Shown one piece after another: positions 22,191 through 53,291 of a DNA stretch of 64,000 nucleotides (its first letter is position 1; each line of letters begins with the position of its first letter). The position numbers and the translations under genes were made by a program. The stretch is from Roseococcus microcysteis (GTDB lineage: Bacteria > Pseudomonadota > Alphaproteobacteria > Acetobacterales > Acetobacteraceae), in contig NZ_CP061718.1 in the NCBI RefSeq assembly GCF_014764365.1, positions 620,001 through 684,000 of the forward strand, given 5' to 3'. The notes under the pieces are model-generated. The model was given only the letters and a program-made list of their open reading frames with translations. It was not told the origin of the DNA and searched no databases.

Positions 22191-23501
22191 TCAGCTGACA
22201 GCCTCTTGTTGCTGGCGGAAAGGCGCGCGGGCGGCCGTGGGCGCATAGGCTTCGGCAAGCCCCGCCAGGAAGGTGTCCCGGTCAATGACATCTTCCACCG
22301 AGGCGGCGAACTGCGCCCGCACCGTGGATTTGGACGCGTATTCCAACGTCTCGGCCAGGTCGGTGGCGGAGTTGCGGCGGAAATGCAGACCGTCGCGTCC
22401 GGGCGTGACCTTCTCGGCCATGCCGCCGATGTCCGAGACGATGAGCGGCGTACCGGCGCGGCGCGCCTCCTGGATGACCACGGGGGAATTCTCCCACCAG
22501 ATGGAGGGCACGACGACCCACCCGACCGATCGCATCAACGGGATCACGTCGCTGGATTCATAACGTCCGGCAAAGATCACGGATTGGCCGAGCGCTTCGA
22601 TGACGGGCGCCAAGTTGGGGAACAGGCGCAGCACATCGGCCTGTTCGGCCCCGAAGACGAGCAGCAATGGGCTGGTACCGGCCTTGCGGCCGGCCTTCGG
22701 CAGCAGGGCCATGGCGCGCAGCAGCACGTCGAGCCCCTTGAAGGCGGTGGGTTGGCCGAAGAAGGCGAAGCGATGCGAATTCGTCCCGCTGGGCTTGGGG
22801 CGCGGCAGGGCCAGCATGTCGTCGCCCAGATAGTTTTCCAGCACCGAGCCGCGATTGTGCAAGCCCCAGTCCAGGTATCGCGCCTGCAGGAATTCGGAGC
22901 AGTAGATCAGGTGGTCCATGCACTGCAGGCCCTTCAGCATGTAGGCCTTGCGCAGCACCAGCGCATCAATGCCCTCCGACGGAAAGCAGGAGAGACAGCG
23001 CACCGCCGACTGCGTGTTGCACAACTCGCGACCTCGCGTCTTGATCATCTGACCATGGTGCAGACATATCGCCAGCATTTCATGCAGGGTCATGACGAAA
23101 TGAGCGTCTGGCCGCGCCTCCACAAGATCGGCGATCATGTCCATGCCGAGCCGCCAGTAATGGTGGAAATGGTACACATCCACCTGGAGCCCGGCCAGGA
23201 AACGCACCAGCGCCCGCCTCTGATCCGCATCCTCCCAGTACAGCCGGTCCTCGGTCATCCGGTCGGTGGTGATGAGGTGTTCGCCCTCGGCATAGGGCAT
23301 GACGACGGGCAGCGGCGGCAGGCCGGCCTTTGTCCCCGCGGGGCGCAGATCGGCGGCGGCCACGAAGGTGGTGTTCCAGCCCGCCCCTCGCATCGTCTGG
23401 TAGTGCCGATACGCCGCGATCTCGCCACCGCCCTTCGAGAAATCCGGATGGGCATGGGAAAGGACGCAGACCGAGGGCCGCGTCAGGGATACGCCGCTCA
23501 T
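22191..23501 (-). CDS. GT4-type glycosyltransferase
   Basis: 436-residue GT-B fold enzyme predicted to add a sugar to a surface glycan in the cytoplasm. The N-domain begins SVCVLSHAHPDFSKGGGEIA and contains VYHFHHYWRLG and a cysteine-containing insert (CNTQSAVRCLSCFPSEG). The C-domain has FAFFGQPTAFKGLDVLLRAM, a G-rich start of the donor site, and the E-x7-E-like segment PSIWWENSPVVIQEARRAGTP, typical of GT4. It overlaps the 515-residue gene upstream by ATGA. The ligated sugar cannot be inferred. Confidence 0.88.
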   Translation of the reverse strand: MSGVSLTRPSVCVLSHAHPDFSKGGGEIAAYRHYQTMRGAGWNTTFVAAADLRPAGTKAGLPPLPVVMPYAEGEHLITTDRMTEDRLYWEDADQRRALVRFLAGLQVDVYHFHHYWRLGMDMIADLVEARPDAHFVMTLHEMLAICLHHGQMIKTRGRELCNTQSAVRCLSCFPSEGIDALVLRKAYMLKGLQCMDHLIYCSEFLQARYLDWGLHNRGSVLENYLGDDMLALPRPKPSGTNSHRFAFFGQPTAFKGLDVLLRAMALLPKAGRKAGTSPLLLVFGAEQADVLRLFPNLAPVIEALGQSVIFAGRYESSDVIPLMRSVGWVVVPSIWWENSPVVIQEARRAGTPLIVSDIGGMAEKVTPGRDGLHFRRNSATDLAETLEYASKSTVRAQFAASVEDVIDRDTFLAGLAEAYAPTAARAPFRQQQEAVS

Positions 23502-25045
23502 GCTTCGATCTCCAGGACCGTCAGGGCAGGTTCAGGGCTGACTCCCGATGACGACACCGCCAGGACGTCCCGCCAGATCACTTCCAGATGCTCGTTCACC
23601 AGTTCCGCGGCCAGCGAGGTCCGCCAGTCATGGGCAACCGGCAGCCAGGGCAGGTTCGGATCGCGCAGCATCGCCCCATAGCGCGTGAGGGTCTCGCCCA
23701 GAGCCCTGGTTGGCCCGGCGAGCGAATGCAGCAGCAGAAGGTATGCCAGACCCCCCACCCGGACCTGCCGCAACAGGCCGGACACCCCGCCCTCGATGGC
23801 GGCGGCGGCCAGGGAGGGCACATCAACGGCGACGAGATTGGTCGGTCCGACCTCCGCCACCCGCGCAAGGATGGCGCCACCCTCGCGTGCCACGACGGCG
23901 GACAGGCGGCCACGCCGGTTGAAGATCTGGGCTGCGGTCTCCGCGGCCTCTCCCAGCACCATGAGCCGGCTGGCGCCGGACTCCAGCTCCGGAGCGAGCA
24001 GATGCAGGAGACGGCATGCGCTCACGTCTTCCACGCCGACCAGCGCGAGTTCGGGCAACTCCAGCATCGGGAAGGAGGGCGTACCCGCCGCCCTCTCCTG
24101 CTCCGCCTCGATCAGGGCGGTGACGAGGGCGATGCGCCGCTCGGCCACATCGGCAATGAGGGTTGTCTGACCGGTCTGGCCGGCCAGGGCGGAACTGAGC
24201 ATGTCCAGGAAGGCTGGAACCGACTCGACGCGGGGCTGGCAGCGCAGCCAGACGCGTTCATCGTCGAAGGTGATCTGCACCAGGAGATCCACGCCGCGCA
24301 GCCTCGCGACATGCTCCCATTGCATTCTGCCATAGAAGGCGCTGGCCCCAGGGACATGCCGCGTCAGGACATCGTGAAACGGCATCAGCGAAATCTCGTC
24401 CGGCCCGCCATCGTCGCTGCGCAAGCGCGCGATGGCAACGGCGTCTATGCGGACGGTGCTGCGCGACCGCCCGATGAAGCGCAGGTCCAGGGCGACCTCG
24501 CCCGCCGGGGAGCAGGAGCATGCCACCTGCGCGACGATGCCGAAATTCTCGGCCTCCCCCTGGACTACGGGCAAATGCGCCATCCATCCGGCGAAGGCCC
24601 CAAAAGGGCGATACTGATATTGCAGCAGCGGCAAAAGTTCAGGCTGCCCGATGCACTCCCTCAGCAGGTCGAAGGTCACACCCCAGTCACGCACCTCGTT
24701 CGCGGCGAAGAGATCTGTCGTGGCCGGCGCGTCCAGATTGACGGACGCCACCTCATCGCCCGCGGTCACCGTCATGATCAGGCCACGCGCCGCATGCGGC
24801 AGCGCGACGATGATCGAGAAACCCCCCACCGTGGCGGCGCCAGGGTCCTCCGGAACCACGTCCGCGCGGGCGTGACGGGAAATGTGGCAAATCCGGCAGG
24901 CGCGGCCATCGGGCGTCGAGAAGCCGAGGCTGACGGGGACACCCCGCGGCGTCATGTGCCAGCCATAGACCACCCGCTTCGACGCACCGAGCGCGGCCAC
25001 ACAATCAATTCCTAGTTGAAAATTTTCATCGAAAGAACGAAACAT
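23498..25045 (-). CDS. Unrecognised 515-residue protein coupled to a glycosyltransferase
   Basis: Large cytosolic-looking protein without a known catalytic motif. The N-terminal 110 residues (CVAALGASKRVVYGWHMTP, GGFSIIVALPHA) resemble the 'GW' accessory domain found at the ends of many Rhizobiales/Acetobacteraceae glycosyltransferases. The C-terminal half (from about 330) is Rossmann-like: LPELALVGVEDVSACRLLHL, SRLMVLGEAAETA, ILARVAEVGPTNLVAVDVPS. The ATG at 25045 has GGGAG a few bases upstream; a GTG at 25057 is an alternative. It precedes and overlaps the GT4 gene, so the two probably act together in glycan assembly. Function unknown. Confidence 0.65.
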   Translation of the reverse strand: MFRSFDENFQLGIDCVAALGASKRVVYGWHMTPRGVPVSLGFSTPDGRACRICHISRHARADVVPEDPGAATVGGFSIIVALPHAARGLIMTVTAGDEVASVNLDAPATTDLFAANEVRDWGVTFDLLRECIGQPELLPLLQYQYRPFGAFAGWMAHLPVVQGEAENFGIVAQVACSCSPAGEVALDLRFIGRSRSTVRIDAVAIARLRSDDGGPDEISLMPFHDVLTRHVPGASAFYGRMQWEHVARLRGVDLLVQITFDDERVWLRCQPRVESVPAFLDMLSSALAGQTGQTTLIADVAERRIALVTALIEAEQERAAGTPSFPMLELPELALVGVEDVSACRLLHLLAPELESGASRLMVLGEAAETAAQIFNRRGRLSAVVAREGGAILARVAEVGPTNLVAVDVPSLAAAAIEGGVSGLLRQVRVGGLAYLLLLHSLAGPTRALGETLTRYGAMLRDPNLPWLPVAHDWRTSLAAELVNEHLEVIWRDVLAVSSSGVSPEPALTVLEIEA

Positions 25046-25243
25046 TTGCTCTCCCACGCGGCGACCTACCGAGGCGGTAAATTTGACGATCCCAAATGAT
25101 GTTTACCGTAATTTTCCCGACCAGAAAAGTGTTTTGACTACGTTATGCAACGCTTCGCGCCCCTACTCGGCTTTGGCGCGAGCGGGTGTGACGATCCCGC
25201 ATGCACAGATTTTCATGGCGTACCCTATTGACTTCACTCATCA

Positions 25244-25278: not shown

Positions 25279-26193
25279 ATGCTCAGAGGCGCAATTGAAA
25301 AAGTTCAGGGCAACACTGTTGGTGGATGGATCTACTCTCCGTCGGTTGACCTGAGGGGATTGACCGTCCTTGCCTTCGTGGACTCGCTGTGTGTCGGCGG
25401 GGGCAAGGTCGAAATCAAGCGTAACGATCTGGCCGAAGCCGGCCTGGACGATGGTCGGTTCGGGTTTTCCTTCCCCGTCACCCTTGCGGATCCAGCGGAT
25501 GGCAAGCGGCTCATCGTCAAGCTCGAAGGCAGCGACGCCCTCCTGGTGCAGGCGACGAGCCGGATCGTCGGTGCCGCCGGGCCGGCCCCCAAGCTGCCTC
25601 AGGGGGCGCTTGCGATGACGCTTGAGACTTTGCAATGGATGCAGGGCCGCGGCTGGCTTTCCCAGTCGGACTACGACTTCCTGCGCTTCTTCCGGCAGCT
25701 TGGGGTTTATGATCGCACGCTGACCATCCCGGTTGAGCGTCCCGACCGGCTCGAGGCAGATGTGCGCGACCCGGCCCATGCGGTTGGCGAGTTGATGGGC
25801 CTCATGAATCTGGGCAGCGTCGAGACGGTCAGGGTGAACCTTCCCAGCACGGGTGACGTCGTCGCCTTCCTGAAGAAGCAAGGCACCCTGCCCTCCGTCA
25901 TCGCCCTTTGGGCGCGGGAGCGAGCTCGTCTGGATATCGTTGAAGGTTCCCACCTGCAGGCGGATCGTGCCTCTTCGAAGGCGTCCGTCGAATATGCGCT
26001 GGGTCCCGACCGGCTGCTGTTCATTGACGCGCGATGCACCTTCGGCGAGCAGATGCTGCCGCCCCCGCCGAGCGGCATCGAGGTCTTCATGAATGCGGCG
26101 GAGGTTTCCCCCGAGGCCATTGCACCGTTCAAGACGGAATCGGCCGAGATGCCCAAGAGCCCCATGCGGGCCTCGGCCGGCGCCCGGAGGTAA
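25279..26193 (+). CDS. Unrecognised protein with N-terminal GWIY domain (paralogue of 33057-33920)
   Basis: 304 residues. The first about 95 residues (GAIEKVQGNTVGGWIYSP, DLAEAGLDDGRFGFSFPV, VKLEGSDALLVQA) form a beta-rich domain that matches the N-terminus of the protein at 33057-33920 at about 50 of 91 positions by eye. The same pattern ('GW..D', 'DL..AG.GDG..GF') is familiar as a domain next to alphaproteobacterial glycosyltransferases. The remainder has no recognised motif and the two paralogues diverge there. No signal peptide. It has a strong AGGAGG site, stands alone ahead of rfbBACD, and is divergent from the 515-residue gene. Confidence 0.65.
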   Translation: MLRGAIEKVQGNTVGGWIYSPSVDLRGLTVLAFVDSLCVGGGKVEIKRNDLAEAGLDDGRFGFSFPVTLADPADGKRLIVKLEGSDALLVQATSRIVGAAGPAPKLPQGALAMTLETLQWMQGRGWLSQSDYDFLRFFRQLGVYDRTLTIPVERPDRLEADVRDPAHAVGELMGLMNLGSVETVRVNLPSTGDVVAFLKKQGTLPSVIALWARERARLDIVEGSHLQADRASSKASVEYALGPDRLLFIDARCTFGEQMLPPPPSGIEVFMNAAEVSPEAIAPFKTESAEMPKSPMRASAGARR

Positions 26194-30005: not shown

Positions 30006-30701
30006 TCAGCGCGGGGCGTGGCGAAGTTGCCAGATATCCGAAGCCAACACGAAGTCCTCCTCCCAGTCCACGTCGAAGGATCGGTCCTTTGACACCGACC
30101 ACAGCAGCGGCGTCCGGCCGATCCGGTCGCCCGTTTCGACATAGGTGGCGCGCGGGGCCAGGAAGACCGAGGAGTTCACTTCGTAATAGACCGGCAGTGT
30201 CTGGGTGCGCGGCCATTTCTCGACATTGCGGTCGTAGTTCAGCGGCCCGTCCTGTGTCCAGATGAAGGTCCGAAGTTCCAGCACGCCCATCAGGCTGTCA
30301 TGCGTGCCGGCCGCCCGTGCCTCACGGTAGAGGCGGATCGCCTCCGAATAGTCGGTGCTGCCAAGGAAGGGGGAAGTGACATGGGTCCAGAGCACATCGC
30401 CCTCGGCGATCACCGTCGGCAGATAGGCGATGACCTCGTCGGTCGAAGTGGCGGAGGAGCAGAGATGATCCGGCCGGCGGTCCAGCACCATCCGGCCGGG
30501 GTTGGCGGCCAGGAAGGGCTCCGCCAAGGCGATCACCTCGGGATCATTGGTGGAGAGCAGGATGCGATCCAGCTCCGGCACTGCCAGAAGCTGCCGCAGC
30601 TTGATGCCCAGCAGCCCAGTCCTATCACCGCCAAAGGTGCGCGTGTTCTTGTGGGGAACCCTCTGGCTGCCGGCACGGCAGGGAAGAAAGGCCGTCAGCA
30701 T
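30006..30701 (-). CDS. Acylneuraminate cytidylyltransferase-family protein
   Basis: 231-residue nucleotidyltransferase of the NeuA/CMP-sugar-acid synthetase family, expected to couple CMP to an acidic sugar. The N-terminal motif AFLPCRAGSQRVPHKNTRTF is the family's 'PARGGSKRIPRKN' site; LLSTNDPEVIALAE, STDEVIAYLP and WTHVTSPFLG follow. The C-terminal SFDVDWEEDFVLAS matches the family end. It overlaps the HAD gene upstream by 7 bp and is the last gene of the cassette aldolase-HAD-CMP transferase. The acid activated is unknown; no NeuB or NeuC is present. Confidence 0.82.
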   Translation of the reverse strand: MLTAFLPCRAGSQRVPHKNTRTFGGDRTGLLGIKLRQLLAVPELDRILLSTNDPEVIALAEPFLAANPGRMVLDRRPDHLCSSATSTDEVIAYLPTVIAEGDVLWTHVTSPFLGSTDYSEAIRLYREARAAGTHDSLMGVLELRTFIWTQDGPLNYDRNVEKWPRTQTLPVYYEVNSSVFLAPRATYVETGDRIGRTPLLWSVSKDRSFDVDWEEDFVLASDIWQLRHAPR

Positions 30702-31408
30702 GCGGGTGAACCATCCTCAGGTTGCGTCATGCCCAGCGCGGCGGGCAGGCCCCGCAGGTCCTCGATCACGGGGAAGCCCTCCTCGATGGCGAGCGCGCGC
30801 ATCCGGGCCTGGACCGTCGAGAAGCGGTCCATATAGACGAAGCGGCATCCGGTCTCGCGCGCCGCCTTCCAATCCGCCTCGGCATCGCCCACGAAGGTGA
30901 TGGCGGAGCGTGGCAGAGCCACCAGTTCGGGCCGGGCGAAAAGTGTGAGCAGGTTCTCGACCTTGGTACGCGGGGAGCCGAGGATCAGGCGGAACATGGC
31001 CGCGTCGCCCCGCGTGGCCAGCACGTCACGCAGTTCCGCCTCGTCTGAGCCGGAGACCACGTAGGTGGGAAGCTTCGCGGCCAGCCGACCCACGACCGCC
31101 CGCATGTCCGGGGTGGCGGCGGCTTCGACATAGAGGTGGCGCAGCCGCTCCGCATAGAGCGCGACCAGACCGTCACGATCCACCGGTGGGCGCCGCTCCA
31201 GATCCCAACCCAGCAGAGCCTCGAAAAGCCGAAACCGCGAGGTCCCGAAATTGGCACGCTGGAAGGCGCTGAAGCGCTCGACATCGCCCGGTGAGAAGCC
31301 GGCCGCTTCCACGGCATCGCGGAAGCAGGCCACCTTCATCTCGTTCGAGTCGAGTAACACGCCGTCGCAGTCAAAGACGACTGCCTGGACCTCGCCGTCT
31401 TCGATCAT
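30695..31408 (-). CDS. HAD-superfamily phosphatase
   Basis: 237-residue haloacid-dehalogenase-type hydrolase. Motif I is VVFDCDGVLLDSN (D13, D15), motif II YVVSGSDEAEL, the motif III lysine is in SPRTKVENLL, and motif IV is TFVGDAEADWKAA. The helical cap (about 25-95) is of the beta-phosphoglucomutase/phosphoglycolate-phosphatase type. It lies 6 bp after the aldolase gene and overlaps the CMP-transferase gene, so a likely role is removing phosphate from the aldolase product before CMP activation, as KdsC or NANP do in the Kdo and sialic acid routes. That role is inference. Confidence 0.82.
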   Translation of the reverse strand: MIEDGEVQAVVFDCDGVLLDSNEMKVACFRDAVEAAGFSPGDVERFSAFQRANFGTSRFRLFEALLGWDLERRPPVDRDGLVALYAERLRHLYVEAAATPDMRAVVGRLAAKLPTYVVSGSDEAELRDVLATRGDAAMFRLILGSPRTKVENLLTLFARPELVALPRSAITFVGDAEADWKAARETGCRFVYMDRFSTVQARMRALAIEEGFPVIEDLRGLPAALGMTQPEDGSPAC

Positions 31409-31414
31409 CAGTGA

Positions 31415-32983
31415 TCAGCTGAGCGCAGCCAGCTCGGCGTACACGGAGAAGGCGTCGATGTCGTAGAAGGTCGGCGTCAGGCTGCGCAGCCGCGTGCCGG
31501 GGTACTTCTGACGGAAGACGTCAAGCATGCTCTGCACCTCGCGCGCCAGGCTCTGCTCGGCGGTGCTGGCGGTTTCGTAGCCGTCGAAGCCGACCAGCAG
31601 GCAGTCCTTCGTGGCGAGGGCCACCACCGCGCCCAGCGCCAGGTCCAGCGGGCTGACATCCGAGACAGGGCCGATCGTGTCGCCGGTTCCGGCGGCGGTG
31701 AGCTGCGCGGCCTGCTGCACCTGGAGCGGGAAGCCGGCGGGCACGCAGCCATCCACCCGCGGCGGCGTGGGTACGATGGCGGCCGTCATGCGACCGAGAT
31801 TGTCCGTCACCTCGACGCGCATGGCATCATGGCCCGGCAGGCACAGCAGCTGTTCGCCGCCCAGCTGGTCACACAGGTCGATGTGCCGCGAGGAGGAGAA
31901 CAGGACCAGCGCGCCGCTGCGGTCCACGAAGCGGGCGATCGCATCGGCGTGGCGCCGAACCGAGGGGCCACCGCCCACGACCACCACGGGGCGGGTCGAA
32001 TTGGCCAGCGGCTGCAGCGAGGGATAGGCACGGCTATCGGTCTCGCTCGCCGCCTGGCGCTGCAGGGCCTGGATGATGGAAAGCACCGAGTAACGCTTCT
32101 TGCCGATCCAATCCATCACGTCGCGCTGCGGCAGGTTGTTCACGCCGCTGATCATGTAGGGGAGATTGGTGCCCCAGCCATATTCACGCTGAAGCGCGTC
32201 AAAAGGCTCCACCACGGAGGAGAGCGCCTCGTAGTCAACCGGCATGTTGCCCGGGCGGCCGTCCAGATAGGCCAGCATCGCCTCCAGGCGCAGGTTGCCC
32301 GCGCCACGGCCCATGCCGATCAGCGTGCCATCCACCACATCGGCGCCGCCCGCGATCGCCGCGATGGAATTCGCCATGGCAAGGCACATGTTGTCATGGC
32401 CGTGGAAACCGATGGTCTTGTCAGGCAGCGCGGCGCGCATCTCGCGGAACAGGCTTTCCACGCGTTCCGGGGTGCAGCCGCCATAGCTGTCCACCAGGGC
32501 AATGCTGTCGAACACCTCAGGCACCTCGAACGCCGCGGAGATCTTCGAAAGCTGCGTCTGGAAGGTGGACAGGTACATGACGTTGAAGCCGGCCTTCATC
32601 CCGGTCGCCTTGATGGCGCGCGCCAGGGCGATGCCGTGGTCCAGCTTGTCGGGCGATACGGTGATCCGCACCATGTCCACGAGCCCGACCAAGTGGCCGA
32701 ACAGCGGCGCCATGCGCTCGGGCGTCGTGCCCTTGCCGTCGATCATCACAACGAGGGATTGGTCGGGACGCAGTGCGGCGCGCGCCTGGCGCAGCCGCTC
32801 GGGAGAGAGGAAGAAGAACTCGCCCGCATAGCCGGGCATGGGGTCGTTCACATAGCCGAGCTCAATGTGACGAACCGGCAGCTTGGCCATCGCGGCGAGA
32901 TAGGTGCGCACCAGACCGGGCTCGAAGTCCCAGGCCGTGTAATAGCCACCATCGCGGAGGGTGCAATCCAGGAGCTCGACCAT
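31415..32983 (-). CDS. HMGL-like (DRE-TIM) aldolase with a C-terminal Rossmann-like domain
   Basis: 522 residues. The N-terminal 300 form a DRE-TIM metallolyase barrel: ELLDCTLRDGGYYTAWDF, HIELGYVND, SYGGCTPERVESLF, the metal-binding FHGHDNMCLAMAN and GTLIGMGRGAGNLRLE, which is the arrangement of 4-hydroxy-2-oxoacid aldolases. The C-terminal 200 residues start VVVVGGGPSVRRHADAIARF, resembling the DUF115/MptE-like domain of glycan enzymes such as Maf. The ATG at 32983 was chosen; a GTG 6 bp upstream is also possible, since AAGGA fits both. Context with a HAD phosphatase and a CMP transferase suggests synthesis of an ulosonic acid from pyruvate and an aldehyde, by inference only. Confidence 0.78.
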   Translation of the reverse strand: MVELLDCTLRDGGYYTAWDFEPGLVRTYLAAMAKLPVRHIELGYVNDPMPGYAGEFFFLSPERLRQARAALRPDQSLVVMIDGKGTTPERMAPLFGHLVGLVDMVRITVSPDKLDHGIALARAIKATGMKAGFNVMYLSTFQTQLSKISAAFEVPEVFDSIALVDSYGGCTPERVESLFREMRAALPDKTIGFHGHDNMCLAMANSIAAIAGGADVVDGTLIGMGRGAGNLRLEAMLAYLDGRPGNMPVDYEALSSVVEPFDALQREYGWGTNLPYMISGVNNLPQRDVMDWIGKKRYSVLSIIQALQRQAASETDSRAYPSLQPLANSTRPVVVVGGGPSVRRHADAIARFVDRSGALVLFSSSRHIDLCDQLGGEQLLCLPGHDAMRVEVTDNLGRMTAAIVPTPPRVDGCVPAGFPLQVQQAAQLTAAGTGDTIGPVSDVSPLDLALGAVVALATKDCLLVGFDGYETASTAEQSLAREVQSMLDVFRQKYPGTRLRSLTPTFYDIDAFSVYAELAALS

Positions 32984-33056
32984 CGCCACGATTTCCTTCT
33001 TCCAATGTTCTCTACGCTACCTTGAATCCCCGGCGACCCACAAGCGGCCCACCTTG

Positions 33057-33920
33057 TCAGGCCGGCACCGTAGCCCCTGTCTGTGCCGCATCGGCGGGCT
33101 GGCCCGCGGCCACCGGATAATGCAGCAGCAACTTGCCTTCGCCGGCCACGCGGCCGGGTGCGAAGTGCACCCAACGGCGTACCGCCAGCATGCTGCGCTG
33201 GTCCAACGGATAATCGAGCGCGCCTGAGAGGTCGGCTTCCTCCAGCAACGTCTCGGGCGAGCAACCGGCCATCTCCACGACCCGCAAGGTCAGCCGTCGC
33301 TCGGCCGAGAGCACGAACAGGCCCGTGTTCGCCCATGGCGCGGTGGGGTCCAGCAGGCGGGCCCGCATGCCCTTGATGGGCCCGAGATCCACAGTCGCAA
33401 TCTCGACAGGCGCCAGCGTCACCGCCTCGAAGAGGTTGCGTGCCGCATCCGCCGGGGCCTGCCGGCTGGCGTCAATCGGAAGGGTGACGGCACCGAAGTC
33501 CTCGAGCGTCGCGAGAAGGTCGGCGGTACCGGTATCAAGCCACCCACGATTGTGACGCCAGGCGCGCACCGGTTCGGACGGCATGACGCCGGCGATGAAA
33601 GCCGAGGCGGGGCGCGGCGTGAGCCGGCTGCCGACATGCGCGTCGGCCTGCAGCAGCACGGCCTCACACCCTTCCAGCCTCACGGTCACGCGCAGCGCAT
33701 CGGCCGGCCGCGGCAGGGTGATGCCGAAGCGGAATCCCAGATGGCCATCACCCAGGCCCGCGGCCTTCAGGTCCTCGCGAAACAGACCCACGCGGCCCGA
33801 GCCCACGCATTGCCGGTCCAGGAAGGCCAGCACGGTGGCATCGCGCAAATCCGCGTTACGAACGTAGATCCAGCCCGCGACAGCGTTGGGCTCCACTTCT
33901 TCGATGGCGCCTAGGATCAT
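33057..33920 (-). CDS. Unrecognised protein with N-terminal GWIY domain (paralogue of 25279-26193)
   Basis: 287 residues. Residues 1-95 (GAIEEVEPNAVAGWIYVRN, DLKAAGLGDGHLGFRFGI, VRLEGCEAVLLQADA) align without a gap to the protein at 25279-26193; the rest (about 110-287) has no recognised motif and differs from the paralogue. The ATG at 33920 starts the conserved domain exactly as in the paralogue; upstream in-frame codons are not conserved. It lies between the unknown-family gene at 34185 and the aldolase gene (73 bp), probably in one transcript. Role in surface-glycan assembly is inferred from context. Confidence 0.65.
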   Translation of the reverse strand: MILGAIEEVEPNAVAGWIYVRNADLRDATVLAFLDRQCVGSGRVGLFREDLKAAGLGDGHLGFRFGITLPRPADALRVTVRLEGCEAVLLQADAHVGSRLTPRPASAFIAGVMPSEPVRAWRHNRGWLDTGTADLLATLEDFGAVTLPIDASRQAPADAARNLFEAVTLAPVEIATVDLGPIKGMRARLLDPTAPWANTGLFVLSAERRLTLRVVEMAGCSPETLLEEADLSGALDYPLDQRSMLAVRRWVHFAPGRVAGEGKLLLHYPVAAGQPADAAQTGATVPA

Positions 33921-34184
33921 GGCTGTGGTCTCCGGATGACGTGGGGTGGAACGATGCGACCGTGGCGGGCGTCGGCGTGCCGCAGTCATGGGAAAAATGT
34001 CCATGAACGGAAGGGGTGCTCTCGCATCCCAGGCATCCCCGCGGGTGGCGATGCAGGAACGTTCACGCTCCGCGTGCCCAGTTCACTGTATTCGACATGC
34101 CATGCAGCCCGAAGATCATTCCATGATCATCAAGGTGAACAGACATGGGGTCAATCGCCTTGTGCTGCAGTGCAAAAAAAACCG

Positions 34185-35279
34185 TCAGGCGGACCGATAG
34201 CGAAGGAGGTGGGCTTCCAGTTCCGGCACGTATCCGCCTTCGAGAAGCTTCTGCAATGGCCCCGTCACAGCCGAAGGCTCGATGGAGGCGTCCGCATCGA
34301 GCACCGGTTGCCTGGGGTCGGAGTGCAGCAGGCGCAGCCTTACCAGGGCGATGAAGCATTGACGCCCCACAGCCATGACGTTCATCAGGTCGCCAATGAC
34401 CCAGACGTTTTCCAACAGGTCCTGCGCCTGGACGGAGGGCTTCACGGTCTCAAGGCCCTGTATGAGGCTGCGCCGCGCATCCTCCGTCCGGCCCGCCAAG
34501 TGCGAGAGCAGGCCATGCATGAAGCAGCCGACGACGAGGTTCAGGGCACTGACCCGCGCGACTTCCACCGTGCCGGTCTGCCGGCCATGCACGGCGAAGA
34601 ACTCCCGTGCGCGATCCGGCTGCTGGCGGATCAGGGCGATGTAGCCGCAAACCGTGGCGAGGGAGGTGGTCCACCGGGCGATCTCCCAGTCCAACGGTCC
34701 GTTGAGCAGCGCCGCCTCGCCCTCCGGCAACAGCTTCTCCGCGGCATCCATCAGCCAGTCCAGCCGCCGCTCATCCTGGGCCGTGAAGCGGCCTGGCAGG
34801 CGCTCCAGGTAGCGGTGGGCGATGATGGTCAGCGCGCTGGCGCGCACCCGGTAGTCCGCCCAGGCCGACCCGAAGGCCAGGCGGGCGCCGAGTTCCAGCA
34901 GGAAGAGAGAGCGAAAGCGGGTGTGGTGCTGCTGCAGCCGCGTGAAGAACTCCTCCGCGCTGCCGATGCGCAAGGCGGCGAACAATTCGCCCTCGCCCTT
35001 CAGCTGCACCCAGTCCGAGACGTCCTTGCCCTGGTCGTCATGAATTTCCAGAAGGCCGTGGGCGGTTTCATACAGCTCCGCCAGCGGGACGACAGCGCTG
35101 ACCGGTGCCAGCATGTCCGCCGGGAAGCGCGCGAGCACCCTGCCACCCAACGAGACCACCCATTGCCGGGAGGACTTTCCCGGCAAGCGCAGCCCTGGCT
35201 GCAACGAAAAAACCGCGGTCCGGGCGGCTTCATCCAATACGGCGGTGACCTCGATGACGGAAGGAATGCTCGAGATCAT
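34185..35279 (-). CDS. Unrecognised helical protein, family A member 1
   Basis: 364 residues. A beta-rich N-terminal about 100 residues (VTAVLDEAARTAVFSLQPG) leads into an all-helical region with EFFTRLQQHHTRFRSLFLLE, ALTIIAHRYLE, RWTTSLATVCGYIALI, VSALNLVVGCFMHGLL and LENVWVIGDLMNVMA. These blocks recur in the next gene (35276-36469) and, more weakly, at 41229-42899. The helical part looks like TPR-type solenoid, but no standard repeat can be scored by eye. No signal peptide. It overlaps its neighbour by ATGA; part of the minus-strand glycan operon. Function unknown. Confidence 0.65.
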   Translation of the reverse strand: MISSIPSVIEVTAVLDEAARTAVFSLQPGLRLPGKSSRQWVVSLGGRVLARFPADMLAPVSAVVPLAELYETAHGLLEIHDDQGKDVSDWVQLKGEGELFAALRIGSAEEFFTRLQQHHTRFRSLFLLELGARLAFGSAWADYRVRASALTIIAHRYLERLPGRFTAQDERRLDWLMDAAEKLLPEGEAALLNGPLDWEIARWTTSLATVCGYIALIRQQPDRAREFFAVHGRQTGTVEVARVSALNLVVGCFMHGLLSHLAGRTEDARRSLIQGLETVKPSVQAQDLLENVWVIGDLMNVMAVGRQCFIALVRLRLLHSDPRQPVLDADASIEPSAVTGPLQKLLEGGYVPELEAHLLRYRSA

Positions 35280-36469
35280 GAGGCAAGAACCTTTGGCGAC
35301 ACCTCGGCGACGGAAGCGACGAATTCCGCGAGACGCCGGGCGTGGCCGGCCGCCAGGATGCGCGCCACCGGAGACTGGACGCCGCCGAGATCAAGATGGG
35401 AACCGGGACTGATCACCGGCTCGTTACTTGGCGGCAACAGACCACAACGGGCGAGTGCGATGAAACAGAGGCGTGACGCGCGCGCGACGTTGATCAGATC
35501 GCCGATCACCCATACGTTCAGCATCACGTTCTGCGCTGCCACGCAGGGGGGGAAGGCCTTTACGCCCCGCTCGAAATGCTCCCGCGCTTCCTCCATCCGA
35601 TCGTCCATGGCCAGCAGGAGGCCCTTGAACAGGCACGCATTCACGAGATTCAAGGCGCTCACGGGGGCAACAGCCACATGATGCGTCTGGGCCGCCGCGA
35701 TCCCGAAATGGTGATGCGCGCCCTCGATATCGTCCCGGCAAAGGCTTAGCAGAGCGCAAACGGTGGCCAGTGAGACGGTCCAGCGGACATCGCTCCAGGC
35801 CGCCTCCCGCGCCTGCGCAAGCCGCGCCGCGCCTTCAGTCACCAATATGTCGCCTTCGGACAACACCCAGGCGGCCAGCGCGGACGCGAATTTGGACGGC
35901 GGCTCGGCCGGATCGGCCTCCAGCAGGCGGTGGGCCACCACGGTCAGGGCGGCGCAGCGCGCCTCGAACGAGGCCAGGTGAGGAAAAGACGCGCGGGCCC
36001 CCAGCACCAGCAGCCGTCGGTCGCGGAAGCGGCTGTGATGCAACTGGATGCGCTCGAAAAAGACGGCTTCGTCCCGGAGGGTCATCGCCTCCATCACCTC
36101 GCCCGTGCCGTGATGGACCGTAACGGCAGCCTGAGCAGTCGCGTCATCGGGCCGAAGGGTCAAGACATGCGAGTTGAGCAACACCACGTTCGCATAGTCC
36201 AGACGGGTCGGCCCGAAGCGCAGCGGATGCGTAGTGGGCCTGTCGGGCGGCGTGAATGTCATCACCGTCACAGGCCCCAAGGCCAGCCGCATCCGCACCC
36301 CCAACAGGGAGGGCGGCACGTCTGTCACCTCGACTAGAAAGGCAATGCGATCTTCACCTTCGACAAATTCGGCGTGCACCTTGACGTTGACACTGAGCGC
36401 ATCAAGGTCCGGTTGTTGATCAGGCCACAGGTTCGTTTCCTCCCGAGACATGATTTCGCTATTAGGCAT
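35276..36469 (-). CDS. Unrecognised helical protein, family A member 2
   Basis: 397 residues, clearly paralogous to the product of 34185-35279: VFFERIQLHHSRFRDRRLL, ALTVVAHRLLE, RWTVSLATVCALLSL, VSALNLVNACLFKGLL and LNVWVIGDLINVARASRLCF are in the same order. The N-terminal beta domain (about 25-125) includes VKVHAEFVEGEDRIAFLVEV. Starts at 36469 (MPNSE) or 36451 (MSREE) are possible. The pair overlaps by ATGA and looks like a tandem duplication that has diverged. No known domain is recognised; a scaffolding or partner-binding role would fit the helical solenoid. Confidence 0.65.
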   Translation of the reverse strand: MPNSEIMSREETNLWPDQQPDLDALSVNVKVHAEFVEGEDRIAFLVEVTDVPPSLLGVRMRLALGPVTVMTFTPPDRPTTHPLRFGPTRLDYANVVLLNSHVLTLRPDDATAQAAVTVHHGTGEVMEAMTLRDEAVFFERIQLHHSRFRDRRLLVLGARASFPHLASFEARCAALTVVAHRLLEADPAEPPSKFASALAAWVLSEGDILVTEGAARLAQAREAAWSDVRWTVSLATVCALLSLCRDDIEGAHHHFGIAAAQTHHVAVAPVSALNLVNACLFKGLLLAMDDRMEEAREHFERGVKAFPPCVAAQNVMLNVWVIGDLINVARASRLCFIALARCGLLPPSNEPVISPGSHLDLGGVQSPVARILAAGHARRLAEFVASVAEVSPKVLAS

Positions 36470-41228: not shown

Positions 41229-42899
41229 TCAATTTAATCCCTTTACTTGCGACTCGTTTTTTGTTTTTTTCTTCAACAATTGAACTCCCGAAGATGACCT
41301 TAAGCCAGCATAAATATCATCTTCGCTTAAATGAAGCTGCAGGAATTCATCAAGTAACTTAGGCAAAACTGGATCCTGCAATACACGATTGGTTGTTTTG
41401 ATAAATTCTTGTCCTGCCAAATTATCTTTCAGCAAAGGCGGCAAGGGCCGAAGGAAGCGGTGAGCAAAGAGGAAACTGGAGGATGCACAGAGAACCATCA
41501 GTCCAGCTGCATCAAAATCCTCCGAAGCGTTGAGACTGCCTACAGACAGCAAATTTTTGATGCGCGGCCCCGCTTCGGCGGCAAGATCAAAGGCCAAATT
41601 CTCATCATTCTGTACGCGGGCCAGCAACGCCAGACATAGGCGGGCCCGTGACAGCTCCAAAGCGGCTTGCCAATCAAAACGTCCCCGCCGATGGTTCGCG
41701 TCGAGCTCCGCGTCAAGGTCGGCAAGCCCATCGGATCGGGGCGCCTCCCCACCCGCGGACAGGGCGGCCAACGCGGCGCGCCACAAGGCTTCCGCGTTGG
41801 CGGAGAGGGGCGTTGCCGCCGCCGGCGCCGGCGCCGGCGCCGCAGCCATCATACGTTGCGGAGATGGCAATTCCTCATCGCCATCGCGTCCGGCGGCGCG
41901 CATCAACAGACGGGACCAATGCCCCTTTGCCTCCAGCCCCCGGGTGATGTTCGTCACTTCGCCGATTGATATGCCGAGCGCGAAACGAAGCATCTGCTCG
42001 CCATTGGTTGCCTGTGGCAACCCCTGAGCGATGCCGTGGGCGATGCGGAGCGACTTGATGACCGCGAAGATCTCGCTGAACTGGCTGCGACCCTTCATGG
42101 GATTGTCGATATGGCTGTGGGCGACGCCGGTGCGGGCGACGTCCGGCACGTCCTTCAGCAGCAGCGCTGCGCCATGACTGTCCCCTCGCGCCAAACGAAT
42201 GAGGGCCAGCAACATGTCACTACGAGAAAAATTGGTGTGCAGGAGAGACAATTTGGGCAGGAACGACCGGTAGGACAGTGTCTTGCGCAGCAGCGCTTCC
42301 GCCTCGACGTCGTTTTGCAACAAGATCGCCACGTAGGTGGCGCACATGGTGACCGAGGTCGTCCATCGAACCAGGTCCTCGCCGCCCTCAACTTCGGCGA
42401 GGAGGCAACCCACTTCGCGCCAGAACAGCGGCAGGTCAGGGTCGAGTTGATCGAGGCTCTCGGCAATACGGTAGCCAATGGCGCAGAGCGCCGCGGCGCG
42501 CAGCGCGGGCGATGCGGCGGGCCGGCGATGCAGGAGGCGGCGGGCGCAGAAACGAACCGCGGCGGGGTCCTTGATGCGGTTCCGGAGAGATTGGACGCGG
42601 TCCAGAAACTCCGCGTCGGTGCGGATATCAACCCGCGTCATGAGCGGCACCGACAAGGTGGCGGATGTCCCGTCGGCCAGCAGAAGCTGCACCTCATGCT
42701 CCAGCGAGGCCTCCTCCTGGAGATCGGCCAGCAGGAATGTCGCCTCGGCGCGGTGCTGGGCATCGAAGCCGGTCGTGTGCATCTTCGTGCCGACCCGCAC
42801 CGTCATGGCAAGCGCGCCGGGTCGAATGGCGATGATGTGCAGACGAGCGAGGTCGAAACGGCAAGAAAGATCGGCGTTCGCCGGCGGGGGTTTGGACAT
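41229..42899 (-). CDS. Unrecognised two-part helical protein, distant family A member 3
   Basis: 556 residues. The N-terminal 330 follow the same order as the paralogues at 34185-36469 but are more diverged: EFLDRVQSLRNRIKDP, ALCAIGYRIAE, RWTTSVTMCATYVAILLQN, LLHTNFSRSDMLLALIRLA. An Ala/Pro linker (APAPAPAAATPL, about 350) joins an extra helical region (LWRAALAALSAGGE, RARLCLALLARVQNDENLAF). The C-terminus ends in a lysine-rich tail and the 3' end is AT-rich. It lies 6 bp downstream of the extra kdsB, so both are probably cotranscribed. Function unknown. Confidence 0.6.
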   Translation of the reverse strand: MSKPPPANADLSCRFDLARLHIIAIRPGALAMTVRVGTKMHTTGFDAQHRAEATFLLADLQEEASLEHEVQLLLADGTSATLSVPLMTRVDIRTDAEFLDRVQSLRNRIKDPAAVRFCARRLLHRRPAASPALRAAALCAIGYRIAESLDQLDPDLPLFWREVGCLLAEVEGGEDLVRWTTSVTMCATYVAILLQNDVEAEALLRKTLSYRSFLPKLSLLHTNFSRSDMLLALIRLARGDSHGAALLLKDVPDVARTGVAHSHIDNPMKGRSQFSEIFAVIKSLRIAHGIAQGLPQATNGEQMLRFALGISIGEVTNITRGLEAKGHWSRLLMRAAGRDGDEELPSPQRMMAAAPAPAPAAATPLSANAEALWRAALAALSAGGEAPRSDGLADLDAELDANHRRGRFDWQAALELSRARLCLALLARVQNDENLAFDLAAEAGPRIKNLLSVGSLNASEDFDAAGLMVLCASSSFLFAHRFLRPLPPLLKDNLAGQEFIKTTNRVLQDPVLPKLLDEFLQLHLSEDDIYAGLRSSSGVQLLKKKTKNESQVKGLN

Positions 42900-50734: not shown

Positions 50735-51571
50735 ATGCCCGCCTCTCCCATCACCATCGGCCCGGTGGCCTTCGCCTCGCATCTGCCCATCGCGCTCATC
50801 GCCGGGCCCTGCCAGATGGAAAGCCGGGAACATGCGCTGGAGATGGCCGCGGCGCTGAAGGACATCGCCGCCCGGCGCGGCATCGGGCTGATCTACAAGA
50901 CCAGCTTCGACAAGGCGAACCGCACCTCCGGCCAGGCGCCGCGCGGCATGGGGCTGGAGGCCGCCCTGCCCGTCTTCGCCGAAATCCGCGACCGCCTGGG
51001 CCTGCCCTGCCTGACCGATGTGCACGAAGCCGCCCATTGCGCGGCCGTGGCCCCGGTGGTGGATGTGCTGCAGATCCCGGCCTTCCTCTGCCGCCAGACC
51101 GACCTTCTGCTGGCCGCCGCCGCCACGGGCCGCGCGGTGAATGTGAAGAAGGGCCAGTTCCTCGCCCCCTGGGACATGAAGCATGTGGCGGCCAAGATCA
51201 CGGGCGCCGGCAATCCGCGCGTGCTGCTGACCGAGCGCGGCACCTCCTTCGGCTACAACACCCTGGTCTCGGACATGCGGGGCCTGCCCGTGATGGCGGA
51301 GGAGACGGGGCTGCCCGTGATCTTCGACGCCACCCATTCGGTGCAGCAGCCTGGCGGCCAGGGCGGCGCCTCGGGCGGTCAGCGGCAATTCGTGGAAACC
51401 CTGTCGCGCGCGGCCGTGGCCGTGGGCGTGGCCGGCCTCTTCATCGAGACCCATGAAGATCCTGATCGCGCGCCCTCCGACGGCCCCAACATGGTGCCGC
51501 TGGCGCGGTTCGAGGCGCTGATCACCCGCCTCCAGGCGCTCGATGCCGTGGTGAAGGGCTGGGCCGCGTGA
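50735..51571 (+). CDS. kdsA: 3-deoxy-8-phosphooctulonate synthase
   Basis: 278-residue Kdo-8-phosphate synthase, condensing PEP with arabinose-5-phosphate. It has [95 protein letters not shown] and a C-terminal [18 protein letters not shown]. The Cys in AGPC suggests the metal-dependent class. It is first gene of kdsA-kdsB-kdsD, overlapping kdsB by 4 bp (GTGA). Confidence 0.96.
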
Positions 51572-52305
51572 GCCGCCCCCTCGTCCTCATCCCCGCGCGC
51601 ATGAGTGCCACCCGCCTGCCCGGCAAGCCGCTCGCCGAGATCGGCGGCCTGCCCATGATAGTGCAGGTGCTGCACCGCGCCCAGGAGGCCGATCTCGGCC
51701 CCGTGGTGGTGGCGACCGACAGCGCGGAGGTGGCGGATGTGGTGCGCGCCGCCGGCGGCAAGGCGCAAATGACCGCGGCCCACCACCCCTCCGGCAGCGA
51801 CCGCATCCATGAGGCCGTGACGCAGCTCGACCCCGAGGGCCGCCACGACCTGGTCGTGAACGTGCAGGGCGACCTGCCTCTCATCGCCCCTCGCGCCATT
51901 CGCGCGGTGCTGGAGGTGATGGACCCGCCCGAGGTGGCACTCGGCACGCTGGTCGCCCCCATCACGCGCGAGGAGGAGCGGACCGCTTCCTCCGTCGTGA
52001 AGATGGTGGGGACCGAGCGCGCGCCCGGCCGCTTCCGCTGCCTCTACTTCACCCGCGCCACCGCCCCCTGGGGCGAGGGCCCGCTGTGGCACCATATCGG
52101 CCTCTATGCCTGGCGGCGGGATGCGCTGGCGCGTTTCGTCGCCCTGCCGCCCTCGCCCCTCGAACAGCGTGAGAAGCTGGAACAGCTCCGCGCGCTGGAG
52201 AATGGCATGCGGGTGGACGCGGCGGTGGTGGACGACATCCCCCTCGGCGTGGACACGCCCGAGGACCTGGCACGCGCCCGCGCCCTGTGGGAGGCCCGCG
52301 CATGA
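51568..52305 (+). CDS. kdsB: 3-deoxy-manno-octulosonate cytidylyltransferase
   Basis: 245-residue CMP-Kdo synthetase activating Kdo with CTP. Motifs are [80 protein letters not shown] and [16 protein letters not shown]. It starts with a GTG that overlaps kdsA by 4 bp and overlaps kdsD by 4 bp. This is the operon copy, distinct from the lone copy at 42906-43643. Confidence 0.95.
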
Positions 52306-53291
52306 GCCCGCTCGACACCCCGATCGGCCAGCGCCTGCGCGAGAGCGCCCTTCGCACCATCGAGCTGGAGGCCGCGGGGCTGAACGCCCTGCGCGCGGCG
52401 CTGGAAGACGAGCTGGGCGCGCGCCTCGTCGCCGCCGTGCAGATGATGCTGCGCCGCAAGGGGCGCTGCGTGGTCACCGGCATGGGCAAGTCCGGCCATG
52501 TGGCGCGCAAGATCGCGGCGACGCTGGCCTCCACCGGCACGGCGGCCCTCTACGTCCATCCGGGCGAGGCGAGCCACGGCGACCTCGGCATGATCGTGCC
52601 CGAGGATGTGGTCCTGGCCCTCTCCTGGTCGGGCGACACGCCTGAACTGGCGACCATCATCGCCTATGCGCGGCGCTTCGACGTCTCGCTCATCGGCATC
52701 ACCTCGCGCGCCGAAAGCCAGCTGGGCAGTGCGGCGGACTATCCGCTGATCCTGCCCTCCTCGGCCGAGGCCTGCCCGAACGGCCTGGCGCCCACCACCA
52801 GCACCACCATGCAGATGGCGCTGGGCGATGCCTTCGCCATGTGCCTCCTGGAGGCGCGGGGCTTCTCGGCCTCCGATTTTCGGGTCTTTCATCCTGGCGG
52901 CAAGCTCGGCGCGCAGTTGCTGCGCGCGGCGGATCTGATGCAGAGCGGCGACAACCTGCCGCTGCTTGGCCCGGAGGCGATGCTGTCGGAGGCGATCGTG
53001 GCCATGACATCGCGCCGCTCTGGCATCGGCGGCGTGGTGGGGGCGGAGGGGGAATTGCTCGGCGTCATCACCGATGGCGACATCCGTCGCGCCTTCAACC
53101 AAGGGTTCGTGGACCGCAAGGTCACGGAGGTGATGACGGCGACACCCACCATCGCGCGGCTGGATTCACTGGCGCCGGAGCTGGTGACGCTGATGAACAC
53201 GCGGGCCATTACCTCCATGTTCGTGATGGACCAGCGCCGCCCCGTGGGCATTTTGCACCTGCATGACCTGTTGCGTGCTGGTGTTGTCTAG
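52302..53291 (+). CDS. kdsD: D-arabinose-5-phosphate isomerase
   Basis: 329-residue enzyme isomerising ribulose-5-phosphate to arabinose-5-phosphate, the entry step of Kdo synthesis. The N-terminal SIS domain shows [33 protein letters not shown] and [14 protein letters not shown]; two CBS domains follow ([11 protein letters not shown] to [10 protein letters not shown], and [11 protein letters not shown] to [11 protein letters not shown]). Length is typical. ATG at 52302 overlaps the kdsB stop. Confidence 0.95.

Follow-up and report, generated by a model that had tools for sequence, protein, structure and literature searches.

In the textbook pathways to ulosonic acids, the key carbon–carbon bond is made by phosphoenolpyruvate (PEP) enzymes, NeuB or KdsA, after which the product is dephosphorylated and activated with cytidine monophosphate (CMP). 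Here, we describe a three-gene cassette of Roseococcus microcysteis that encodes a DRE-TIM/HMGL-like aldolase with a fused second domain, a HAD phosphatase, and a CMP-sugar synthetase. The cassette lies in a stretch of 64,000 nucleotides (bases 620001–684000 of contig NZ_CP061718.1; hereafter, the window) of an Acetobacteraceae-type genome of 4.21 Mb in one contig. Our best reading is that the cassette belongs to a conserved, apparently uncharacterized pathway to a CMP-ulosonic acid that would be neither N-acetylneuraminic acid (Neu5Ac) nor ordinary 3-deoxy-D-manno-oct-2-ulosonic acid (Kdo).

The three genes are packed on the minus strand. The first (31415–32989) encodes the aldolase fusion, with 524 residues if read from the GTG at 32989; an ATG two codons further in, at 32983, is the likelier start. 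Its aldolase domain (32060–32989, residues 1–310), recognized by a Pfam match, a match to PDB entry 3dxi, and invariant residues, is followed by a C-terminal domain of about 210 residues (31415–32056) that distantly resembles the MptE/Maf (DUF115) family and possibly binds a CMP-sugar. The second gene (30695–31408) encodes a HAD phosphatase of 237 residues (HAD_2/Hydrolase), and the third (30006–30701) a CMP-sugar synthetase of 231 residues. All three products pass their Pfam cut-offs (HMGL-like, 84.5 bits against 29; Hydrolase, 48.2 against 26.4; CTP_transf_3, 36.2 against 22.6), in agreement with an earlier note on this DNA that had read the genes as an aldolase, a HAD phosphatase, and a CMP transferase in close order. 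Since only six bases separate the aldolase stop from the HAD start, and the HAD and CMP genes overlap by seven bases, the genes likely form one operon.

Related loci were collected by scanning contigs with two aldolase motifs and keeping the closest 80 of at least 564 confirmed stretches. With six loci from genome searches, this gave 86 loci (designated by L numbers), 74 of which have a long aldolase (at least 480 residues). The kept stretches derive from Bacteroidota, Alpha- and Gammaproteobacteria, Nitrosomonadales, Prochlorococcus, Omnitrophota, and two bins named as Bacillus and Clostridia; among these best 80 of at least 564, the loci closest to the cassette studied here that carry a name come mostly from Roseomonas-type Acetobacteraceae, and one comes from Sphingomonas. 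The long aldolase is rare, occurring in about 0.3–2% of the sampled genomes, yet it is found in several phyla. Including the genome studied here, it was detected in 2 of 289 genomes of the same class (E ≤ 1e-40; 1 of 288 without its own) and in 5 of 249 genomes of the same family (E ≤ 1e-20; 4 of 248). A family profile (E ≤ 1e-80) matched 4 of 295 genomes in the class of a Chitinophaga genome, one match being short (two long ones in 294 without the center genome), and 6 of 321 in the class of a Shewanella genome (5 of 320), both center genomes having been chosen because they carry the cassette. Sequence P0001 gave no match among plasmids and phages at E ≤ 1e-30 and 1e-20.

Co-occurrence was counted over loci whose flanks each span at least 4 kb, leaving out L001, L003, and L009 (the genome's own locus and near-duplicates). 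A CMP synthetase gene on the same strand lies within 4 kb of the long aldolase in 52 of 54 loci, the cassette HAD gene in 42, and both in 42, in a sample that leans to the closest relatives and keeps three pairs more than 90% alike (L006–L008, L031–L034, and L076–L080). None of the five short paralogues with room has either gene. In a distance control using the 48 loci whose two flanks extend to 9 kb, CMP genes were found within 4 kb in 47 loci and at 5–9 kb in 8, and HAD genes in 37 and 0, respectively. A fresh sample of six loci with no DNA match to the first 86 (L111, L134–L136, L138, and L139; L110 was excluded as having the DNA of L021) showed the CMP gene in all six and the HAD gene in three, within flanks of at most 1.5 kb. 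In L140 (genome G530), an opposite-strand gene splits the HAD and CMP genes from the aldolase gene. The observation thus reaches beyond a single locus, to a conserved cassette.

The best PDB match of the aldolase domain is 3dxi (298 bits over residues 4–312), and 4-hydroxy-2-oxovalerate aldolases follow with 51–61 bits; in the open literature in PMC, the matches listed for 3DXI are unrelated uses. Among NCBIfam models, the best match is a hydroxy-oxoacid (HOA) aldolase, below its cut-off. Residues R12, D13, H196, and H198 align with R17, D18, H200, and H202 of the HOA aldolase DmpG, where we take D18, H200, and H202 to be the metal ligands and R17 to be the catalytic arginine. These four, and likewise R108, D167, R228, N232, W272, and Y278, are invariant in all 74 long and all 10 short members of the family. 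Because the metal- and enolate-binding residues are invariant, formation of a pyruvate enolate at this site is plausible; as a speculation, R108 and R228 could bind phosphate. According to the accessible part of PMC3962088, BphI, an orthologue of DmpG (1NVM), belongs to the class II pyruvate aldolases, and its Tyr-290 acts in stereocontrol. This genome has no further aldolase of the cassette family at E ≤ 1e-20.

The CMP-sugar synthetases were typed by clade membership in a FastTree tree; labels based on E-values were noisy and were not used. The cassette enzymes form two clades, an N-type (NeuA/PseF-like, support 0.97), which includes the enzyme of the window, and a K-type (KdsB-like, support 0.98). 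Neither clade includes the window's kdsB or the NeuA genes that neighbor NeuB. Five enzymes are placed differently: those of L017, L054, and L059 beside kdsB, and those of L065 and L075 beside ordinary NeuA. Eight rows of the tree entered as references (L09x/L10x) are the longest open frames (381–587 residues), and their placement was not used except for L095, which groups with the window's kdsB. On the aldolase tree (FastTree; flagged for uneven letter make-up and two long branches, L055 and L069), at least 13 changes between N- and K-type are needed over 65 rows, compared with an average of 21.7 and a minimum of 16 in 200 label shuffles. The type thus partly follows ancestry but has often been exchanged. 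That two non-orthologous types are swapped argues that what stays constant is a need to activate an acid of the ulosonic type.

Residue roles for the N-type were taken from the Neisseria CMP-Neu5Ac synthetase, as given in the accessible part of PMC2901514, through a low-identity pairwise alignment. In this alignment, R12, K21, D209, and D211 of the Neisseria enzyme correspond to R9 (31 of 32 N-type enzymes), K18 (32 of 32), D210 (31 of 32), and D212 (32 of 32), and an arginine occupies the position of the carboxylate-binding Arg165 in 29 of 32. At the position of the sugar-binding Gln104, 30 of 32 have histidine, and at that of Phe192 in the N-acetyl pocket, 30 of 32 have arginine, the Phe192–Phe193 pair reading Arg-Ile in the window's enzyme. 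The motif Q[VI]C[IV]Y is found in 27 of 31 K-type enzymes, at the place of HIGLY in the window's kdsB. Since residues of the sugar site are altered, the predicted substrate of the cassette synthetase is neither Neu5Ac nor Kdo. The best NCBIfam match, the PseF equivalog TIGR03584, reaches 47.7 bits, below its cut-off of 205.7. As for the HAD phosphatase, the motifs DCDG, VVSGSD, K, and GDAEAD can be read, and the closest NCBIfam subfamilies are of type IA, with scores below cut-off.

The absence of NeuB from the window, pointed out in the earlier note, extends to the whole 4.21 Mb genome, which has no match to PF03102; NeuB as the feeder of the CMP synthetase here was therefore rejected. The same note had placed kdsA in an operon of its own 18 kb away, and this is where it is found (50735–51571, plus strand), with kdsB and then a SIS-CBS gene behind it; the three genes span 50735–53291. 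Two further points on which that note had made its proposal depend, the meeting of the three families in other genomes and the retention of metal- and pyruvate-binding positions, came out in its favor in the counts given above, the latter as judged from the sequence.

Taken together, we consider it reasonably probable (about 60%) that the cassette provides a short path by which a 3-deoxy-2-ulosonic acid is made and activated with CMP for use in a surface polysaccharide. The chemistry, the order of the steps, and the sugar are what we infer from families, residues, and gene company. In a first step, the metal-dependent HMGL-type domain would join an enolate derived from pyruvate to an aldehyde acceptor, for which an aldose phosphate of central metabolism is the likeliest choice, yielding a 2-keto-3-deoxy acid or its phosphate. 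The HAD enzyme, which some variants do without, would then take off the phosphate, and the CMP synthetase, as its family and residues suggest, would couple the acid to CMP. For the MptE/Maf-like tail, a distant relative of CMP-ulosonate transferases, the probable role is to bind the final CMP-sugar, whether for feedback sensing or for transfer. The triad of Shewanella abyssi (L070) stands alone between opposite-strand genes, which means that no dedicated precursor genes adjoin it and that the acceptor may come from central metabolism.

Several observations weigh against this route. The HOA-aldolase cut-offs of NCBIfam are not reached (103.1 of 229 bits and 89.5 of 286 bits). His21 of DmpG is, we assume, the catalytic base of HOA aldolases, and its position is taken by Tyr16 in all 74 long members and by Leu or Ile in all 10 short ones, which makes any assignment of donor and acceptor tentative. 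The HAD gene is lacking within 4 kb in 12 of 54 loci; the ten of these that have a CMP gene are all Bacteroidota by title, and two Pelagibacteraceae loci (L076 and L080) have neither gene. In all five HAD-less genomes searched (Dysgonomonas twice, Prevotella, and two metagenome-assembled genomes), nothing matches the cassette HAD family at E ≤ 1e-12, whereas four control genomes do so at 1e-86 or better. NeuB turned up in two of the six genomes examined first, in G053 and, as two partial matches, in G530, whereas the cassette relatives G409, G291, and G487 lack it. Among 34 further genomes with the cassette (34 of the 80 loci were covered), 24 have NeuB and 10 do not, so the two often share a genome elsewhere. 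Within the window, we identified no glycosyltransferase that would use the product. In addition, second aldolase genes accompany HAD and CMP genes in L012, L023, L054, L059, L065, and L075, and in L134 and L135, an HpcH/HpaI-like aldolase (by eye) sits between the aldolase and CMP genes, where the HAD gene usually is; another enzyme could thus make the bond in such loci. The order of aldol bond, phosphatase, and CMP transfer proposed in the earlier note therefore stands as the best reading of co-occurrence and residues, but it is weakened by Tyr16, by a HAD gene that is not universal, and by the second aldolases.

These same features nourish the alternative that survives best, in which a CMP-ulosonic acid is made but the HMGL-type enzyme is not its synthase. 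The pyruvate aldol step would then fall to an HpcH/HpaI or dihydrodipicolinate synthase (DHDPS)-type aldolase, nearby or elsewhere, and the HMGL-type enzyme would carry out another carbon–carbon step, with another 2-oxo acid, with an acyl-CoA donor, or in side-chain elongation. The inconstant HAD gene, the replacement of the HOA-aldolase base by tyrosine, and the additional aldolases (HpcH/HpaI in L012, L023, and L059 and, by eye, in L054, L134, and L135; DHDPS-type in L065 and, by eye, in L075) would fit such a scheme. However, a second aldolase is found in 6 of 67 surveyed loci (by Pfam or by eye, part of the genes having been scanned), the three genes make up the whole unit in L070 and L078, where genes of the opposite strand lie on both sides, and both the best NCBIfam match and the best characterized PDB matches are HOA (pyruvate) aldolases. 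We therefore regard this alternative as unlikely, while giving it the most weight among the competing explanations. PfkB kinase genes occur in L026, L036, and L069, with a start that presumably resembles 2-keto-3-deoxygluconate kinase. Since the HpcH/HpaI, DHDPS, and PfkB families include enzymes acting on 2-keto-3-deoxy acids, the presence of these genes also supports an ulosonate as the product.

The C-terminal domain (residues 312–524) could be aligned in 72 long members, and the 10 short paralogues end before it. The earlier note had labeled it DUF115/MptE; in the window, the domain alone stays below the cut-off of PF01973 (15.8 bits vs 34.6), but the label is upheld at the level of the family, 44 of 72 members matching at E ≤ 1 (best, 2e-7). 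Comparison by hhalign with a profile of 18 DUF115/Maf domains, taken from genomes of the family of a Shewanella, gave a probability of 96.6% over 42 columns in the region of the GGGPS motif. A G-F-D-G-Y stretch resembles the second motif of the DUF115 family by eye; hhalign did not align this second motif. Conserved positions are G341, D469, and G470 (71 of 72 each), E484 (69), and Y509 and S515 (68 each). A profile search of solved structures gave weak matches to MptE (8sd5, E = 0.011), Campylobacter sialyltransferases (from 0.06), and Maf (5mu5, 0.24), with unrelated oxidoreductase and ribose-binding chains at 0.05–0.08. As far as the accessible part of PMC11339370 goes, the central domain of Maf (pfam01973) resembles the sialyltransferase Cst-II, and CMP-Neu5Ac and CMP-Kdo are used by a Maf enzyme. 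A role of the domain in binding a CMP-sugar is a fair conclusion from these resemblances, and not more.

It is conceivable that the tail is itself a catalytic glycosyltransferase, in which case one polypeptide would both make and transfer the sugar, a scheme compatible with the proposed route. The resemblance of Maf to Cst-II and its donors, the weak profile matches to MptE, CstII, and Maf structures, and the conservation of D469, E484, and Y509 speak for this; however, no match exceeds its cut-off, unrelated structures score about equally, the profile alignment covers 42 columns only, and separate transferase genes follow some cassettes. Judged on its own, we think that catalysis by the tail has a low probability. 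The downstream genes were sampled by selecting 114 from 67 loci, of which 105 were scanned; six match GT29 sialyltransferases and six match the polysialyltransferase family PF07388, and these neighbors count in favor of the proposed route. Bacterial genes of the GT29 (eukaryotic-type sialyltransferase) family lie directly downstream in L013, L015, L016, L027, L043, and L048 (cluster c26), and an upstream gene in L135 (3105–4484) has a motif similar to GT29 by eye.

A further possibility is that the CMP synthetase activates, or supports the activation of, Kdo made by the kdsA product, the aldolase and the HAD enzyme having an unrelated function. The window does hold kdsA, kdsB, and the SIS-CBS gene, and since the genome has no match to KdsC (TIGR01670), the HAD enzyme could in principle act on Kdo-8-phosphate. 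Yet kdsA already has a dedicated kdsB next to it, and the cassette CMP enzymes mostly form separate clades with changed sugar-site residues. Moreover, the TIGR01670 cut-off was reached in none of eight genomes of the same family, four with and four without the cassette (two weak matches were seen), so that lack of KdsC does not track the cassette; kdsA was not part of this comparison. We hold this explanation to be improbable. That the aldolase is degradative, recycling or cleaving a 2-keto-3-deoxy acid in the manner of HOA aldolases, which are catabolic, and of 2-keto-3-deoxy-6-phosphogluconate (KDPG) aldolases, as the position of one short paralogue (L083:9235–9900) directly after a KDPG-aldolase-like gene (by eye) may suggest, is highly improbable in view of the constant company of CMP-sugar synthetases, the frequent neighbors for glycosyl transfer and polysaccharide synthesis, and the lack of any catabolic operon around the long form in the neighborhoods listed.

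Beyond the short route to a CMP-ulosonic acid in this genome, we tentatively suggest, with less confidence, that the cassette represents a separately evolved route present across phyla, in which a DRE-TIM pyruvate aldolase would produce a sugar acid that is neither Kdo nor a nonulosonic acid of the NeuB family, the tail would read or transfer the CMP-sugar, and the HAD and CMP modules would be swappable. If true, surveys based on NeuB would have missed a class of acidic sugars in organisms from Bacteroidales to Shewanella, Prochlorococcus, and Pelagibacteraceae, a class for which the long aldolase would serve as a marker. The key carbon–carbon bond would then be made by a third enzyme family, a pyruvate aldolase accepting sugar substrates, and candidate donors would be at hand for some of the sialyltransferase-family genes beside the cassette.

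The window contains a second synthetase of cassette type, P0005 (42906–43643, minus strand), a K-type (KdsB-like) enzyme by its tree position and a possible associated part. It groups with L007:7333 of Sphingomonas and the cassette enzyme of L073, not with the window's kdsB. The Sphingomonas locus L007 also has a full N-type cassette, so two cassette-type synthetases can share one genome, and P0005 possibly serves the same or a sister sugar. P0005 adjoins a gene for a 556-residue protein (41229–42899, minus strand) without any Pfam match.

Other genes recur around the cassette. The region is flanked by two paralogues without Pfam match, 33057–34004 (minus strand) and 25279–26193 (plus strand), which share 40% identity over 189 residues and have a relative, by eye, in another cassette genome (L140:5417–6328). 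Upstream of the aldolase gene lie two adjacent paralogues without Pfam match (34185–35279 and 35276–36469, both minus strand; 40% identity over 258 residues), and a 47% relative adjoins the cassette in L140 (8106–9269). Correspondence between the gene for a 519-residue protein at 23498–25057 and L140:2233–4038 was suspected from position and was rejected when the comparison gave no match. Ferredoxin/LdpA-like proteins of about 340 residues are encoded in the vicinity of cassettes from Omnitrophota, Prochlorococcus, and Nitrosomonadales (L054:13209–14225, L058:15295–16329, L059:11624–12652, and, by eye, L057:13197–14225). B12-binding/radical SAM-type genes follow the aldolase or the cassette in L065, L073, L076, and L080 (cluster c31) and, by eye, in L075; in the Pelagibacteraceae loci L076 and L080, the gene follows an aldolase that has neither a CMP nor a HAD gene within 4 kb.

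Searches of the open literature in PMC listed no paper that describes the gene set, as judged by titles and the starts of abstracts; most subscription papers lie outside this scope. Compared with known systems, the cassette aldolase shares the metal Asp/His/His and enolate Arg positions of the class II pyruvate aldolases DmpG and BphI, but it scores far below the family cut-offs, has an invariant tyrosine for the base histidine, and carries an extra C-terminal domain. The "putative aldolase" 3dxi belongs to the same family as the cassette domain; its entry gives a structure and no function, and its chain (320 residues) stops where the second domain of the cassette enzyme starts. That second domain resembles the MptE/Maf flagellin glycosyltransferases (PF01973) and GT42 sialyltransferases in the GGGPS region, but it lies below the Pfam cut-off and is fused to an aldolase. 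With the sialic, pseudaminic, and legionaminic acid pathways (NeuB–NeuA and PseI–PseF), the cassette shares a NeuA/PseF-like synthetase and, in some loci, neighbors of sialyltransferase families, whereas this genome lacks NeuB and, in the low-identity alignment, the synthetase has His at the Gln104 position and Arg-Ile for Phe192–Phe193. With the Kdo pathway (KdsD–KdsA–KdsC–KdsB), it shares the logic of carbon–carbon bond, HAD phosphatase, and CMP coupling, the K-type even having a KdsB homologue; in contrast, an HMGL-type aldolase stands in for the PEP enzyme KdsA, the HAD enzyme does not match KdsC (TIGR01670), the triad has no isomerase gene, and most of the CMP synthetases branch apart in the tree and differ in a sugar-site residue. 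The cassette would thus be of a known kind, that of the CMP-ulosonate pathways, and what is new would be the enzyme for the carbon–carbon bond and the domain fused to it.

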